Source: Gluconobacter kanchanaburiensis NBRC 103587 (lineage in GTDB: Bacteria > Pseudomonadota > Alphaproteobacteria > Acetobacterales > Acetobacteraceae). From it: a DNA stretch of 64,000 nt. How positions within the stretch are numbered: position 1 is the first letter of the stretch; every line of letters begins with the position of its first letter. Of the stretch, positions 32,451 through 46,596 are shown piece after piece. The notes under the pieces were generated by a model, which worked only from the letters and a program-made list of their open reading frames with translations, was not told the origin of the DNA and did no database searches. Where the stretch lies: assembly GCF_007988905.1 (NCBI RefSeq), contig NZ_BJVA01000001.1:62001-126000 (forward strand). Direction: 5' to 3'. Both the position numbers and the translations under genes were made by a program.

Positions 32451-33194
32451 TCAGACAGGCGCTGCAATAGCCGGTGAGGTATTTTCTAGGGTGACGTCAG
32501 GTGCGAGGAGTGGTTCACTACCCTCGTTTTCGCGCAGGATGTAGCCCCGACCCCAGACCGTTGCAATCAGGTTCCCCGCACCGACGTTCTGAAGTTTGCG
32601 ACGAAGTTTGCAGATGAAGACGTCAATAATTTTCATTTCCGGTTCGTCAATGCCGCCGTAGAGGTGGTTTAGAAATGCATCTTTGGTCAGAACTGACCCT
32701 TTGCGGATGACCAGAAGTTCCAGAATGGCATATTCCTTGCCGGTGAGGTGCAGTGGTGCGCCATCTACCGTTACATTTTTGCCATTCAGGTCCAGCTCCA
32801 GATTTCCAACACGCAGTTTTGGTTCTGCGAAACCGCGGGAGCGGCGCATGACGGCCTGAAGGCGCGCTACCAGTTCCCCGGCATCATAGGGCTTGGTCAT
32901 GTAATCATCAGCCCCCATAGAAAAGGCCCGGATCTTGGCCTGCGGTCGCAACAGGGCAGAAAGCACAAGAATGGGGGTTGTGATGCGGGCTGTCCGGACG
33001 CGCCGAATGACTTCGTATCCTTCAAGATCGTTCAGCATCAGTTCCAGAACGACGACGTCATAGTCGTAATGGCGAAGCATTTCGATCGCCTCTTCGCCGG
33101 ATGGCGTGTGATCGACGGTAAAGGAGGCGGTCCGCAGGGTCTGCGACAGGGTAGCGGCAGCGGTCTGATCACTGTCAACGAGAAGGATACGCAT
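32451..33194 (-). CDS. ctrA: CtrA-type cell-cycle response regulator with glutamate at the phospho-acceptor site
   Basis: 247 residues from an ATG with CAGGAG upstream; a frame 14 codons longer begins without one. The receiver domain (1-~120) and OmpR-type winged helix (~130-232) align along their length with Caulobacter CtrA, including 'LTGKEYAILELL', 'FLNHLYGGIDEPEMKIIDVF' and 'ICKLRRKLQ'. Compared with the Caulobacter protein (as remembered), position 51 is E in 'VVVLELMLNDLEG' where CtrA has the phosphorylated D, and position 8 is S where CtrA has D. D9, S79 and K101 of the receiver are kept. The C-terminus ends 'AIAAPV', not the Ala-Ala degradation tag. CtrA binds DNA to control cell-cycle and motility genes. 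It is divergent from fliI. Confidence 0.9.
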   Translation of the reverse strand: MRILLVDSDQTAAATLSQTLRTASFTVDHTPSGEEAIEMLRHYDYDVVVLELMLNDLEGYEVIRRVRTARITTPILVLSALLRPQAKIRAFSMGADDYMTKPYDAGELVARLQAVMRRSRGFAEPKLRVGNLELDLNGKNVTVDGAPLHLTGKEYAILELLVIRKGSVLTKDAFLNHLYGGIDEPEMKIIDVFICKLRRKLQNVGAGNLIATVWGRGYILRENEGSEPLLAPDVTLENTSPAIAAPV

Positions 33195-33384
33195 TTCATC
33201 AACTCCTGGATTGGTAAAATAATGGTTACTACCCATAGTTGTGTATGTCGATGGGTGGAGATGAAAAATCGTAAATTTGTCATTATTTCTCTCGTGAGAG
33301 GGGAGTGTTAGGGATCCCTTAATGAGTGGGTTGTAGAATGTAAAAATCTTACAAACCTTTAAAAACTGGCTGGAAACTGCCTTT
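33195..33384. promoter_or_regulatory. Divergent ctrA / fliI promoter region
   Basis: 190 bases between two divergent genes. It contains the palindrome AGGGATCCCT (33310-33319) and the inverted repeat TGTAA-N5-TTACA (33339-33353), both closer to fliI. I looked for the full CtrA box TTAA-N7-TTAA and found none; CTTAATGAGTGGGTTG (33318-33333) is at best half a site. Either repeat may be an operator; this is inference. Confidence 0.45.
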
Positions 33385-34743
33385 ATGAGCGATTATGACA
33401 GCCTGATTGAGCGCATTCTAAACACGAGCTTTGTATGGGTTTCAGGAAGTGTGAAAGATGTCGTCGGCCTGTGCATGACCGTTATCGGACTCGACGGATT
33501 CGTTGCGATCGGTGATCGCGTGGAGATAAAGGCGCGGAGTGGTCGCTCAGTACAATCAGAGGTTGTTGGTTTTCAGGGCGAGGTTGCGCGCGTCATGTCT
33601 TTCGGGTCGCTGGAGGGTATTGGCCCGGGATGCGAGGCGAAAGTCGCACTTGATCGCCGTGAAAATGGACTGCGGGTCAATGACGGGTGGCTTGGACGCG
33701 TAGTGGACCCTCTCGGGCAGCCGATCGATGGACGTGGGCCGTTGCCGAGCTCATTCCGCTGCCAGCCGAGCCAGTGTCCTCCGCCCGGGGCGGCAAGCCG
33801 TGCACGGCTGGGAGATCGCATTGATCTTGGTGTTCGTGCGCTCGATACATTCACGACATGTCGGCGCGGGCAGAGGCTGGGTCTGTTCGCCGGGTCTGGT
33901 GTCGGAAAATCAACTCTGCTCTCAATGCTTGCCCGCGGAGCGGACTGTGATGTTGCCGTCATTTCTCTGGTTGGGGAACGTGGTCGCGAAGTCCGTGAAT
34001 TTATCGAGGATGATCTGGGACCAGATGGTCTGGCCCGGAGTGTCCTGGTTATCGCCACGTCGGACTCGCCGCCCCTGATGCGTCGTGAAGCGGCTCTTTC
34101 AGCCATGGCGATTGCTGAATACTTTCGGGATCAGGGCAAGTCCGTTCTGCTGTTGATGGATAGTGTCACGCGGTTCTGCATGGCATTGCGTGAGATCGGT
34201 CTGTCGGCGGGAGAGCCGCCGGCGACGCGTGGTTATCCCCCCTCTGTTTTTGCGGAACTTCCTCGTCTTCTGGAGCGCGCAGGCCCCGGATATCCCGATC
34301 AGGGGATGATCACCGCGCTTTTCACGGTTCTGGTGGAAGGTGATGACCAGAACGAGCCTGTGGCGGACGCCGTGCGCGGTATTCTGGATGGGCACATTAT
34401 TCTTGACCGGAAGATTGGCGAACAGGGACGCTATCCCGCCATTGATGTTCTGAGGTCGTTGTCCCGTGCGGTTCCGCGATGCAATTCCGACGAAGAAAAC
34501 GCTCTCACATGTCAGGCCCGCGCGGCCATGGCCACCTATCAGCGGATGGCCGACATGATCCGGCTGGGTGCTTACAAGACGGGAACTGACAGGGAAGTTG
34601 ATGAAGCGATTACCCTGATGCCCAAACTGAACCAGTTTCTTTCCCAGGGACGTGAGGAGCATTCTACCCGTGCGGAAGCTTTCGAACAGCTCGGCGCGAT
34701 CATGCATGCGCTTCCGCAGATAACTCCTCAGAATGCAGCTTAA
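33385..34743 (+). CDS. fliI: Flagellar export ATPase FliI
   Basis: 452 residues, F1-beta-like ATPase of the flagellar type III export apparatus. Walker A 'AGSGVGKST' is at 169-177 and 'VISLVGERGREVREF' follows. The signature 'DQNEPVADAVRGILDGHIIL' is typical of FliI and its type III relatives. Its neighbour is fliJ, so I call it flagellar rather than virulence-type. The next gene starts 14 bases after the stop. The rest of the flagellar genes are not in the window. Confidence 0.93.
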   Translation: MSDYDSLIERILNTSFVWVSGSVKDVVGLCMTVIGLDGFVAIGDRVEIKARSGRSVQSEVVGFQGEVARVMSFGSLEGIGPGCEAKVALDRRENGLRVNDGWLGRVVDPLGQPIDGRGPLPSSFRCQPSQCPPPGAASRARLGDRIDLGVRALDTFTTCRRGQRLGLFAGSGVGKSTLLSMLARGADCDVAVISLVGERGREVREFIEDDLGPDGLARSVLVIATSDSPPLMRREAALSAMAIAEYFRDQGKSVLLLMDSVTRFCMALREIGLSAGEPPATRGYPPSVFAELPRLLERAGPGYPDQGMITALFTVLVEGDDQNEPVADAVRGILDGHIILDRKIGEQGRYPAIDVLRSLSRAVPRCNSDEENALTCQARAAMATYQRMADMIRLGAYKTGTDREVDEAITLMPKLNQFLSQGREEHSTRAEAFEQLGAIMHALPQITPQNAA

Positions 34744-43722: not shown

Positions 43723-46596
43723 GTGGCAGACACAATCTCCAATACCGGTCTGAATACCGTTAGCAACGCTTTGTGCGACCTCGAGAAATACGGCCAGTCT
43801 CCCTGGCTGGATTTCATCCAGCGTAGCTTCACGGAGGATGGAAGCCTCCGCAAGCTGGTGGACGAGGATGGCCTGCGTGGCGTGACGTCCAACCCGGCCA
43901 TCTTCGAGAAGGCTATTGGACACGGCACGGAATACGATCCGCAGATTCGCAAGCTGCTCGAAGGCGAGGGGTTGTCCCCTGGCGATCTGTACGAGCATCT
44001 CGCCATTGACGACATCCGGTCCGCCTGTGCGGTGCTTGACCCGGTGTTTGAAAAGACCAAGGGGCTGGATGGCTATGTCAGCCTCGAGGTTTCGCCCTAT
44101 CTGGCGTTTGACGCGCATGGAACGATCACTGAGGCCCGCAGGCTCTGGAAAACGGTCGCGCGCAAGAACCTGATGATCAAGATTCCTGGAACTGCCGAAG
44201 GAACCGGCGCGATCCGGGAGGCGATTGCGGATGGCATCAATGTCAATGTGACGCTGCTGTTCTCACTGGACGCTTATAAGGCTGTTCTTGAAGCCTATAT
44301 TTCGGGTCTGGAAGCCCGCGTGGCGCGTGGCGAGGAAGTCTCCCGCATTTCCAGCGTTGCCTCGTTCTTCGTCAGCCGCATCGACGCCAAAATTGATGGC
44401 GAAATCGACCGCCGTGTGGCTGCAGGTGATGCGGAAGCCGAGGCACTGAAGGCCATTCGTGGCAAGGTTGCGATCGCCAACGCCAAGATGGCGTATCAGT
44501 ACTACCTTGAAGTTCGTGACAGCCAGCGCTGGAAGGCGCTTGCCGAGAAGGGCGCCAACCCGCAGCGCCTGCTCTGGGCCAGCACCGGCACCAAGGACAA
44601 AGCCTATTCCGACGTTCTCTATGTCGAGGAACTGATCGGACCCGAGACGGTCAACACCATTCCGCCCGCAACGTTCGATGCGTTCCGCGATCACGGCAAA
44701 GCGCGTGCCAGCCTGACCGAAAATATCGATCAGGCCCGGCATGTGATGGCAGAGGCCGAGCGTCTTGGCCTTGATCTTGATGGCGTGACGACGAAGCTGG
44801 TCAAGGAAGGCTGTGCGGCCTTCAGTGTGTCGTTTGATACACTCCTGACCGCTGTTGCCACCAAACGCGAAGCTGTTCTCGGTGACCGCCTGCTCCGTGT
44901 GAGTGCGGACCTGCCGTCGGATATTCGGGACGATGTGGCAGGCGCCGAGAAGGACTGGAGCCAGAGTGGCGGTCTGCGTCGCATCTGGAAGAAGGACCCG
45001 TCCGTCTGGACCAACGGTCCCGAAGCCGATTGGCTGAACTGGCTGACGGTCGTGCAGGATCGGCTGTGGCATATCGAGGAGCTGGAAGTTCTGGCCCGCG
45101 ATGTTCGCAGTCGCGGTTTCACGGACATCCTGCTTCTGGGCATGGGCGGTTCGAGTCTTGGACCAGAGGTTCTGGCCGAGACATTCGGTCAGCAGGAGGG
45201 TTGGCCGAAGCTGCATGTTCTTGACAGCACGGACCCGCAGCAGGTTACGGCGTTCGAAAAAGCCATCGACCCCAAGAACACGCTGTTCATCGTGGCCAGC
45301 AAGTCTGGCGGCACGCTGGAGCCGAACATCCTGTTCGCGCATTTCTGGCAGGTCGCGGGTCAGGCGCTTGGCAAGAAGCCCGGTGACAGCTTCATTGCCA
45401 TCACCGATCCGGGTTCGCACATGCAGAAAGTAGCCGAAGAAAACGGCTTCTGGCGTGTGTTCTACGGCGATCCGAAGATTGGCGGCCGTTATTCGGTGCT
45501 GTCCAATTTCGGGCTGGTGCCGGCAGCCGCGAGTGGTATCGATGTTCGCAAGCTGCTGACGATTACCAGGCTGATGGTGGAATCCTGTGATGGCAGTGCG
45601 CCACCTGCCGCCAATCCCGGTGCTGTTCTGGGGCTGATCCTCGGTCACGCAGCACATTGCTTCGGGCGCGACAAGGTGACGATTCTCGCTTCTGATGGGA
45701 TTGCCTCGCTGGGTGCATGGCTGGAGCAGCTTATTGCTGAAAGCACCGGCAAGAAGGGCCTCGGCCTTATTCCGATTGACGAAGAAGAGCTGGGCACCCC
45801 GGACGTTTACGGAACGGATCGTATTTTCGTCGATCTGCTTCTTGGCGACGATGCTCCGGACAGCCGTCTTGGCGCACTGCGCGCCGCAGGGGCTCCTGTC
45901 GTCACGATCCGTTTGGCCGACGCTGCGCAGATCGGACAGGCATTCTTCCTGTTCGAATTCGCGACTGCCGTCGCCGGTGCCGTTCTGGGGATCGATCCGT
46001 TCGATCAGCCGGACGTGGAATTCAGCAAGCTCGAGACACGCAAGCTGACGTCCGCCTATGCCGAGACGGGTTCGCTTCCGCCGGAAACGCCTTTCGCCAA
46101 GGATGGTCCGCTGTCCTTTTATGCCGATGCGAAGAACACTGAAGCTTCTGGCAGCAAGGGGGATGCGGCCTCCATTCTCAAGGCGCTGTTCGATCGGGTG
46201 AAGCCCGGCGATTACGTTGGTCTGCTGGCTTATATCCGGCGTGATCAGCAGACGCGGGACTGGGCACAGTCGGTTCGCATGGAGCTTCGGGACGCGCTGA
46301 AGGTGGCGACAGCCGCCGAGTTTGGCCCCCGGTTCCTGCATTCGACGGGCCAGGCCTACAAGGGTGGACCTGACAGCGGCGTGTTCCTGCAGGTTACGAC
46401 CACGGATGCGGCGGATGTGCCGGTTCCGGGCCATGGCTTCAGCTTCAGTGTCGTCAAGGCGGCACAGGCACGAGGCGATTTCGAGGTGCTCGCGGCTCGT
46501 GGCCGTCGTGCCCTTCGTGTTCATATCGATGGACCGCTGGAGGAAGGGCTCAAGGCTCTGGAAACGGCGATTCACAAAGCACTGGCAGGAGCATAA
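43723..46596 (+). CDS. tal-pgi: Bifunctional transaldolase / glucose-6-phosphate isomerase
   Basis: 957 residues from a GTG start with a GAG-type ribosome site. Residues 1-~370 are transaldolase: 'LRGVTSNPAIFEKAI' and the Schiff-base lysine K153 in 'NLMIKIPGTAEG', and 'RLLWASTGTKDKAYSDVLY'. Residues ~395-957 are glucose-6-phosphate isomerase: 'LLLGMGGSSLGPEVL', 'LDSTDPQQV', 'IVASKSGGTLEPN'. The fusion is continuous with no stop or frameshift and is known in acetic acid bacteria. It joins the non-oxidative pentose phosphate reactions to fructose-6-phosphate/glucose-6-phosphate exchange, allowing carbon to cycle. The gene is 12 bases from tkt and 3 from gnd. Confidence 0.96.
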   Translation: MADTISNTGLNTVSNALCDLEKYGQSPWLDFIQRSFTEDGSLRKLVDEDGLRGVTSNPAIFEKAIGHGTEYDPQIRKLLEGEGLSPGDLYEHLAIDDIRSACAVLDPVFEKTKGLDGYVSLEVSPYLAFDAHGTITEARRLWKTVARKNLMIKIPGTAEGTGAIREAIADGINVNVTLLFSLDAYKAVLEAYISGLEARVARGEEVSRISSVASFFVSRIDAKIDGEIDRRVAAGDAEAEALKAIRGKVAIANAKMAYQYYLEVRDSQRWKALAEKGANPQRLLWASTGTKDKAYSDVLYVEELIGPETVNTIPPATFDAFRDHGKARASLTENIDQARHVMAEAERLGLDLDGVTTKLVKEGCAAFSVSFDTLLTAVATKREAVLGDRLLRVSADLPSDIRDDVAGAEKDWSQSGGLRRIWKKDPSVWTNGPEADWLNWLTVVQDRLWHIEELEVLARDVRSRGFTDILLLGMGGSSLGPEVLAETFGQQEGWPKLHVLDSTDPQQVTAFEKAIDPKNTLFIVASKSGGTLEPNILFAHFWQVAGQALGKKPGDSFIAITDPGSHMQKVAEENGFWRVFYGDPKIGGRYSVLSNFGLVPAAASGIDVRKLLTITRLMVESCDGSAPPAANPGAVLGLILGHAAHCFGRDKVTILASDGIASLGAWLEQLIAESTGKKGLGLIPIDEEELGTPDVYGTDRIFVDLLLGDDAPDSRLGALRAAGAPVVTIRLADAAQIGQAFFLFEFATAVAGAVLGIDPFDQPDVEFSKLETRKLTSAYAETGSLPPETPFAKDGPLSFYADAKNTEASGSKGDAASILKALFDRVKPGDYVGLLAYIRRDQQTRDWAQSVRMELRDALKVATAAEFGPRFLHSTGQAYKGGPDSGVFLQVTTTDAADVPVPGHGFSFSVVKAAQARGDFEVLAARGRRALRVHIDGPLEEGLKALETAIHKALAGA

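Follow-up and report, generated by a model that had tools for sequence, protein, structure and literature searches.

CtrA is the textbook example of a cell-cycle regulator that is timed by phosphorylation. Among receivers that lack the phospho-accepting aspartate, glutamate is the commonest residue at the Asp position (26%), the first acidic residue is kept in 65%, a basic residue occupies the Lys position in 70%, and the second position is acidic in 29% (PMC4395418; papers are cited throughout from the available parts of their texts). Glutamate is therefore the least surprising substitute at residue 51 of CtrA. The activity of such pseudo-receivers has been attributed to phosphomimicry, conformational bias or dimerisation, with control through synthesis, degradation or partners (PMC12632262). 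In Rhodospirillales genomes, ctrA, gcrA, and ccrM were found in 72-82%, and chpT, cckA, and divL in 27-36% (PMC8116508); the available text of that paper makes no mention of a changed phosphorylation site in CtrA.

The window studied here, which is the whole stretch of 64,000 nucleotides that was analysed, comes from Gluconobacter kanchanaburiensis and contains a ctrA gene flanked by glmM on one side and by the divergent fliI gene on the other (Table 1). We consider it likely that the product, the only CtrA detected in this Gluconobacter, is a pseudo-receiver regulator that acts without phosphorylation and whose output would be set mainly by its amount. The first-pass annotation had reported Glu (GAA) at residue 51, where Caulobacter has D51, along with Ser8, Ser79, Lys101, and a chain ending in IAAPV, and all of these were confirmed by reading the sequence, which also places Asp7 in the receiver and SPAIAAPV at the end of the protein. 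Residue numbers follow a start that was chosen to align with other CtrA proteins; an alternative in-frame start at 33236 would give a protein of 261 aa.

Table 1. Coordinates of the ctrA gene, of selected codons and elements, and of other genes in the window
Feature	Position	Strand	Basis or remark
ctrA, 247 aa, ATG start	32451..33194	(-)	open reading frame; Pfam PF00072 and PF00486 above cut-off
CtrA domains: receiver (about 1-118) and OmpR-type DNA-binding domain (about 126-222)	32451..33194	(-)	Pfam
Codon 51 of CtrA, GAA (Glu), phospho-acceptor position	33042..33044	(-)	sequence reading
Codon 8 of CtrA, AGT (Ser); Asp there in most D51 relatives with the relay	33171..33173	(-)	
Codon 101 of CtrA, AAG (Lys), conserved pocket lysine	32892..32894	(-)	
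C-terminal tail of CtrA, residues 224-247, ending IAAPV	32454..32525	(-)	predicted disordered, pLDDT < 50 for 224-245
Conserved element ACAACTATGGGTAGTAAC upstream of ctrA	33225..33242	(-)	probable core promoter with overlapping imperfect inverted repeat
CtrA-like box TTAA-N7-TTAA, one mismatch, in the ctrA-fliI gap	33308..33322	(.)	putative; presumed binding site
fliI, divergent neighbour of ctrA	33385..34743	(+)	TIGR03498, 637 bits, cut-off 587.45
Fused transaldolase / glucose-6-phosphate isomerase gene	43723-46596	(+)	NF007080, 1482.8 bits

The top NCBIfam family for the protein was NF045991 (CtrA), which covered residues 1-222 of 247 with a score of 327.5 bits, below the NCBI equivalog cut-off of 350. 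Nine relatives were scored with the same model: all 3 D51 proteins of the Acetobacteraceae type were above the cut-off (371-380), 1 of 4 E51 proteins was barely so (351.0), and 2 D51 proteins from other families fell on either side of it (350.4 and 285.6). Since the results were mixed among both D51 and E51 relatives, the score below the cut-off is not specific to E51. In a tree of 135 proteins, the CtrA of the window grouped among the Acetobacteraceae CtrA, and it was 85-92% identical to the proteins in ten Gluconobacter records (L060-L069). By its top, near-full-length model match and its place in the tree, the gene product is classified as a CtrA orthologue. The predicted model has a receiver fold with a pLDDT of about 94 and a disordered tail, and the modelled receiver lies 1.0 A from the solved CtrA receiver in a phosphotransferase complex, 4qpj_C. 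With PF00072 above its cut-off, a receiver fold in the model and E51, the protein is placed among the aspartate-less receivers.

It was considered whether E51 could be due to a sequencing error or could belong to a paralogue residing beside an intact CtrA, both of which had been raised in the first-pass annotation, and the probability of either is vanishingly small. A sequencing error was ruled out by the presence of E51 in independent assemblies, namely in all 7 genomes from the genus group to which the window belongs (its own genome among them) and in 10 of 10 Gluconobacter records of a second collection (L060-L069). A paralogue was ruled out because no second CtrA was present among the 29 receiver matches in the genome of the window (G000; 2.92 Mb, 99.97% complete), where the next best match was 35% identical, and because fliI adjoins the gene.

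To study residue 51 across the family, CtrA was searched for in 299 genomes of the same family, evenly drawn from a larger group, of which 297 matched at E <= 1e-30; a repeated search in 80 of these genomes gave 67 matches at E <= 1e-40. The protein was read from 140 genomes, comprising the best 30 of the 299-genome search, 30 from the 80-genome search, and 80 chosen stretches, so that ChpT-bearing genomes are merely sampled among them. After 5 broken or partial rows were dropped, the usable set contained 135 rows from 64 genera, most of which are presumably acetic acid bacteria. Residue 51 was D in 61 rows, E in 53, R in 11, A in 4, H in 3, and G, N, and S in 1 row each. E51 was present in 6 of 6 genomes of group g85 and in all Gluconobacter and Asaia copies read across the site. 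By name, it was found in Gluconobacter, Neokomagataea, Tanticharoenia, Brytella, Acetobacter musti, Acidomonas, Asaia, and part of Bombella, while the other Bombella copies and those of Parasaccharibacter had A51. The comparison of Acetobacteraceae CtrA proteins proposed in the first-pass annotation thus identified E51 as a clade trait, and no peculiarity of the window's genome, with R, H, A, S, N, or G in other lineages.

Both acidic residues were kept in 4 E51 copies (L039, L040, L172, L240). In the remaining E51 copies, residue 8 was S, P, E, N, G, T, H, or Y, and the copies with E8 had Gly7. This pattern fits an order of events in which the D51E change would have come first and the decay of the acid pocket afterwards.

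We noted that the rows L188, L202, L209, L210, L213, and L214 of group g41 had strongly diverged CtrA receivers with Ile or Ala at residue 101; these rows come from genomes without detected flagellar rod genes and have a largely intact DNA-binding helix. It was also noted that at least 9 genomes lacked a clear CtrA orthologue, giving either no match at all or one at an E value of only about 1e-32 to 1e-37, namely G029 and G116 (g30), G100, G157, and G200 (g100), G077 and G144 (g77), and G117 and G210. Eight of these 9 were also without detected flagellar rod genes, the exception being G117.

The proteins of the phosphorelay were searched for in the same genomes. PF10090 gave no match to ChpT in G000, with a positive Caulobacter control, and detected ChpT in 185 of the 299 family genomes, 174 of them above the cut-off; the model might overlook a very divergent ChpT, and 5 rows with weak matches (E 1e-4 to 1e-3) were scored as ChpT-less. 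Among the 35 rows counted as ChpT-bearing (E <= 1e-4), 34 had D51, the exception being G133 (E51). The curated CckA model NF046026 gave no match above its cut-off in 80 family genomes, ChpT-bearing ones included. Since this model and the CpdR model NF046022 fail even in ChpT-bearing genomes, absence by these models means little, and the curated CckA model was replaced by a profile built from 5 of 7 fetched CckA-like kinases. The 7 kinases, which were top-scoring and all from ChpT-bearing genomes, represent one orthologue with a mutual identity of 43-60%, as compared with about 30-38% to the 4 hybrid kinases of G000. Over the 299 genomes, the profile gave strong matches to E 1e-286 followed by a long background, and no CckA-like orthologue was identified by it in G000, which fell within the background (2.1e-83). 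Among the 135 rows, no E value lay between 1e-110 and 1e-118. A relay was scored as present if a genome contained ChpT (E <= 1e-4) or a CckA-like kinase (E <= 1e-112); the kinase threshold was set post hoc, and it missed the kinase in 9 of 35 ChpT-bearing rows.

In at least 10 ChpT-bearing relatives, the gene for the CckA-like kinase shares a contig with flagellar rod genes, at a distance of about 13-17 kb, as in G166:C30, G231:C25, G262:C3, G095:C13, and G267:C45.

An intact pocket, defined as D51, acidic residues at 7 and 8, and K101, was found in 37 of 39 rows with a relay versus 7 of 96 rows without (Fisher p 1e-23; kinship ignored), and by genus in 27 of 28 versus 5 of 36 (p 1e-11; kinship ignored). 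Just 4 of the 7 relay-less rows with an intact pocket came from assemblies that were at most 90% complete. A tree pair test of relay versus pocket had 4 supported independent pairs (8 in total), with means of 1.6 agreeing, 0.1 opposing, and 2.3 showing no difference; it was underpowered and not significant (p >= 0.5). With so few independent pairs, relay and pocket are strongly coupled as a pattern but weakly as a recurring event. In our reading, an ancestor of the acetic acid bacteria lost the CckA-ChpT relay, and the change in CtrA probably followed or accompanied this loss.

It is quite improbable that a relay is present in a form too divergent to be detected, or that another kinase acts on another residue of CtrA. 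In its favour, absence by the curated CckA and CpdR models means little, as these fail in all 80 family genomes, and Brilli et al. thought that ChpT may be replaced by other phosphotransferases in organisms with CtrA and CckA (PMC2877005); however, PF10090 does detect ChpT in the majority of the family genomes, and the pocket is broken in most of the ChpT-less ones. The suggestion in the first-pass annotation that this CtrA has been freed from the phosphorelay is well supported by the broken pocket and by the failure to detect ChpT, a CckA-like orthologue or a second CtrA in the genome.

The same annotation had combined this with a release from proteolytic control, and for that part we found no support. 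The final Ala-Ala that ClpXP proteolysis of CtrA requires was present in 37 of 61 D51 rows, 6 of 53 E51 rows, and 2 of 21 others, and is thus absent from 24 of the 61 D51 relatives. RcdA was found in none of the 299 family genomes, with a positive Caulobacter control, and the CpdR model NF046022, with 0 of 80 family genomes above its cut-off, is uninformative here. Since Ala-Ala is often absent and RcdA was nowhere found, the degradation pathway of Caulobacter is no safe yardstick in this family, and an escape of CtrA from proteolysis is not supported.

If phosphorylation has been lost, residue 51 could be functionless and free to drift; D to E takes a single step, and the DNA-binding domain would be all that matters. 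The many replacements at this site agree with drift, as residue 51 has changed at least 17 times on the tree of 135 proteins (pocket columns removed), and so does the faster divergence of the receiver than of the DNA-binding domain in relay-less lineages: the between-genus mean identity was 0.487 for the receiver versus 0.679 for the DNA-binding domain in E51 rows, as compared with 0.742 versus 0.794 in rows with a relay. We nevertheless consider neutral drift unlikely, because the sequence comparisons indicate that the receiver is under purifying selection. Its mean dN/dS was 0.043 (42 of 45 pairs with finite dS, from nine Gluconobacter and one Neokomagataea), where dS is near saturation (means 1.3-1.4), and 0.055-0.117 in 7 other groups, some of them from few pairs. 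For the DNA-binding domain, the mean dN/dS was 0.030 (38 of 45 pairs from the same sequences, with dS likewise near saturation), and with PF00486 above its cut-off and the recognition helix kept, its conservation is as the first-pass annotation had described. Group g41 was an exception, with a dN/dS of 0.149 in the DNA-binding domain versus 0.074 in the receiver (3 usable pairs).

The residues that face the dimer partner also argue against drift, being almost invariant. D96, R117, and R118 did not vary in the set of 135 rows, D97 and E107 were each kept in 134, and R111 was kept in 128 and replaced by Lys in 7; these 6 residues belong to the OmpR-family dimer face that is formed by alpha4-beta5-alpha5. 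Furthermore, opposite charges at residues 51 and 101 are mostly retained. The two residues were an acid and a base in 108 of 135 rows and a base and an acid in 8 others, comprising 6 rows with R51-D101 (g68) and 2 rows with H51-D101 (g31), and D101 was found with no residue 51 other than R or H. The other states were base-neutral (6 rows), acid-neutral (6 rows), and a neutral residue at 51 (7 rows), and the charge pair is therefore not obligatory. The apparent charge swap in a dead CtrA pocket is seen in L192-L194, L197, L199, and L201 (g68) and in L177 and L181 (g31).

A stronger claim than the one we favour is that E51 is a natural phosphomimetic, which pushes the receiver into an active and dimeric state and leaves CtrA permanently ON. 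The D51E allele has been used in this way in Caulobacter and Rhodobacter (PMC12186491, PMC6363796), Glu is the commonest residue 51 in relay-less rows (52 of 96), and an acid at 51 stands opposite a base at 101 in most rows. On the other hand, the site is occupied in sister lineages by R, H, A, S, N, or G, or by D51 in a broken pocket, an Asp-to-Glu change by itself often does not activate a receiver (PMC4395418), and the idea of mimicry has been refuted for some pseudo-receivers (PMC12632262). In Rhodobacter, gene transfer was slightly down upon overexpression of D51E and twofold up with D51A (PMC6363796). We regard a phosphomimetic role of E51 as possible although doubtful, and the question is raised whether a natural E51 is equivalent to the engineered D51E.

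Returning to a CtrA that acts without phosphorylation, the loss of the phosphorylation site, the lack of detected switch proteins and the retained selection suggest that a master switch has been rebuilt to work phosphorylation-free. Because Asp51 is replaced by Glu and the second acidic residue by Ser, ordinary aspartate phosphorylation of this CtrA would be impossible. The receiver may instead serve as a constitutive dimerisation module, with the acidic residue 51 opposite Lys101, and CtrA would bind to TTAA-type boxes, one of which is located between ctrA and fliI. The output would be set mainly by the amount of CtrA that is made, and perhaps also by the speed of degradation or by binding.

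Flagellar rod genes (PF00460) were undetected in 48 of the 299 family genomes, and such genomes contributed 32 rows to the usable set of 135. The recognition helix was discernible in 31 of these 32 rows (14-19 of 19 residues) and disrupted in the remaining one. Since CtrA is kept in genomes without rod genes, its role is probably not confined to flagella, at least in some of these bacteria. A more far-reaching proposal is that the relay was discarded and CtrA rebuilt as a constitutive pseudo-receiver with a charge-pair pocket, that its amount alone sets the output, and that it has an essential role other than motility in lineages without flagella, as the persistence of the gene there would imply. 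We put this forward tentatively, as a proposal that falls a little short of an even chance.

In the region between ctrA and fliI, a putative CtrA-like box was identified (Table 1). The best such box among 17 upstream regions was located at -127 to -129 in 9 of 9 Gluconobacter (L060 and L064 left out), at -112 in 3 of 3 Asaia, and at -117 in Brytella, and no such single site was seen in Neokomagataea, Tanticharoenia, Acetobacter musti, and Acidomonas. The p-values for single sequences ranged from 0.003 to 0.83 and are so weak that position is the sole argument for the box, an argument that is itself weakened by shared descent. The window contained 3 boxes within one mismatch versus 2.9 expected, which is no enrichment. 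Genome-wide, exact TTAA-N4..10-TTAA occurred at 56 sites in G000 versus 140 for a control pattern read backward, and 8 of 50 TTAA sites listed had a spacer of 7 bases, close to the one-in-seven share that any single spacer would have; there is thus no genome-wide enrichment of CtrA boxes in G000.

Closer to the gene, the conserved element ACAACTATGGGTAGTAAC was identified, variants of which precede ctrA in many members of the family. When the pattern was relaxed, it had 3 matches in G000, of which only the one at ctrA had the GGTAGTA end. We infer that the element is the promoter of ctrA, perhaps with an operator. An Rfam search gave a chance match only. By eye, the upstream element reads ACAACC-N3-GGTAGTAA in many E51 genomes, is ACACGCATAGGTGGTA-like in many D51 genomes, and has GGTTGTA after TTGAC in R51 genomes; a second similar copy sometimes follows some 20-30 bases further downstream, close to the ribosome site. 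Elsewhere in the window, it was noted that the gene for a fused transaldolase and glucose-6-phosphate isomerase adjoins those for transketolase and phosphogluconate dehydrogenase.

The open-access matches listed in our literature search contained no report on the function of CtrA in acetic acid bacteria, a search that left the subscription literature mostly outside, and no report of a pseudo-receiver CtrA was found in the open-access literature, although pseudo-receivers as such are known. In their available parts, a Komagataeibacter paper cites CtrA for Caulobacter (PMC12733265), and Gluconobacter is used just in a heat-shock protein tree in PMC2529317. CtrA is not mentioned in the main texts of PMC4395418 and PMC12632262. 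In our best reading, what is new is a phosphorelay-independent pseudo-receiver CtrA that is common to many acetic acid bacteria, CtrA and pseudo-receivers each being known. A CtrA without a relay would fit the scarcity of chpT, cckA, and divL in the Rhodospirillales, and give it a consequence (PMC8116508, available part). A lineage that keeps CtrA without the relay would be a natural experiment on what CtrA can time by amount alone.

The protein belongs to the same gene family as the CtrA of Caulobacter and other alphaproteobacteria, its gene is likewise preceded by a CtrA-like box, and its DNA-binding helix DEPEMKIIDVFICKLRRKL is common to the D51 relatives in the family. It differs from them in that the phospho-acceptor Asp is missing, the pocket is broken, and ChpT and the CckA-like kinase were undetected in its genome, and it scores below the NCBI cut-off for CtrA, as do some others. 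HP1043/HsrA of Helicobacter, CosR of Campylobacter, ChxR of Chlamydia, and RitR of the pneumococcus are OmpR-type regulators that have been described as phosphorylation-independent. The fold matches of our model include HP1043 (2hqr), CosR, and RitR, but these are no orthologues of the CtrA of the window, with an identity of 23-29% in the fold alignments. Another atypical regulator, Rem of Agrobacterium, is linked to motility. Rem is alphaproteobacterial and under phosphorylation-independent control through inhibition by MirA, but it is a different protein (PMC12632262). The CtrA of the window shows, position by position, the state most often described for aspartate-less receivers, with Glu at the Asp position, the first acidic residue and the Lys kept, and the second acidic residue lost (PMC4395418, PMC12632262); unlike them, CtrA is the output of a well-studied phosphorelay, altered here in numerous lineages of a single family.
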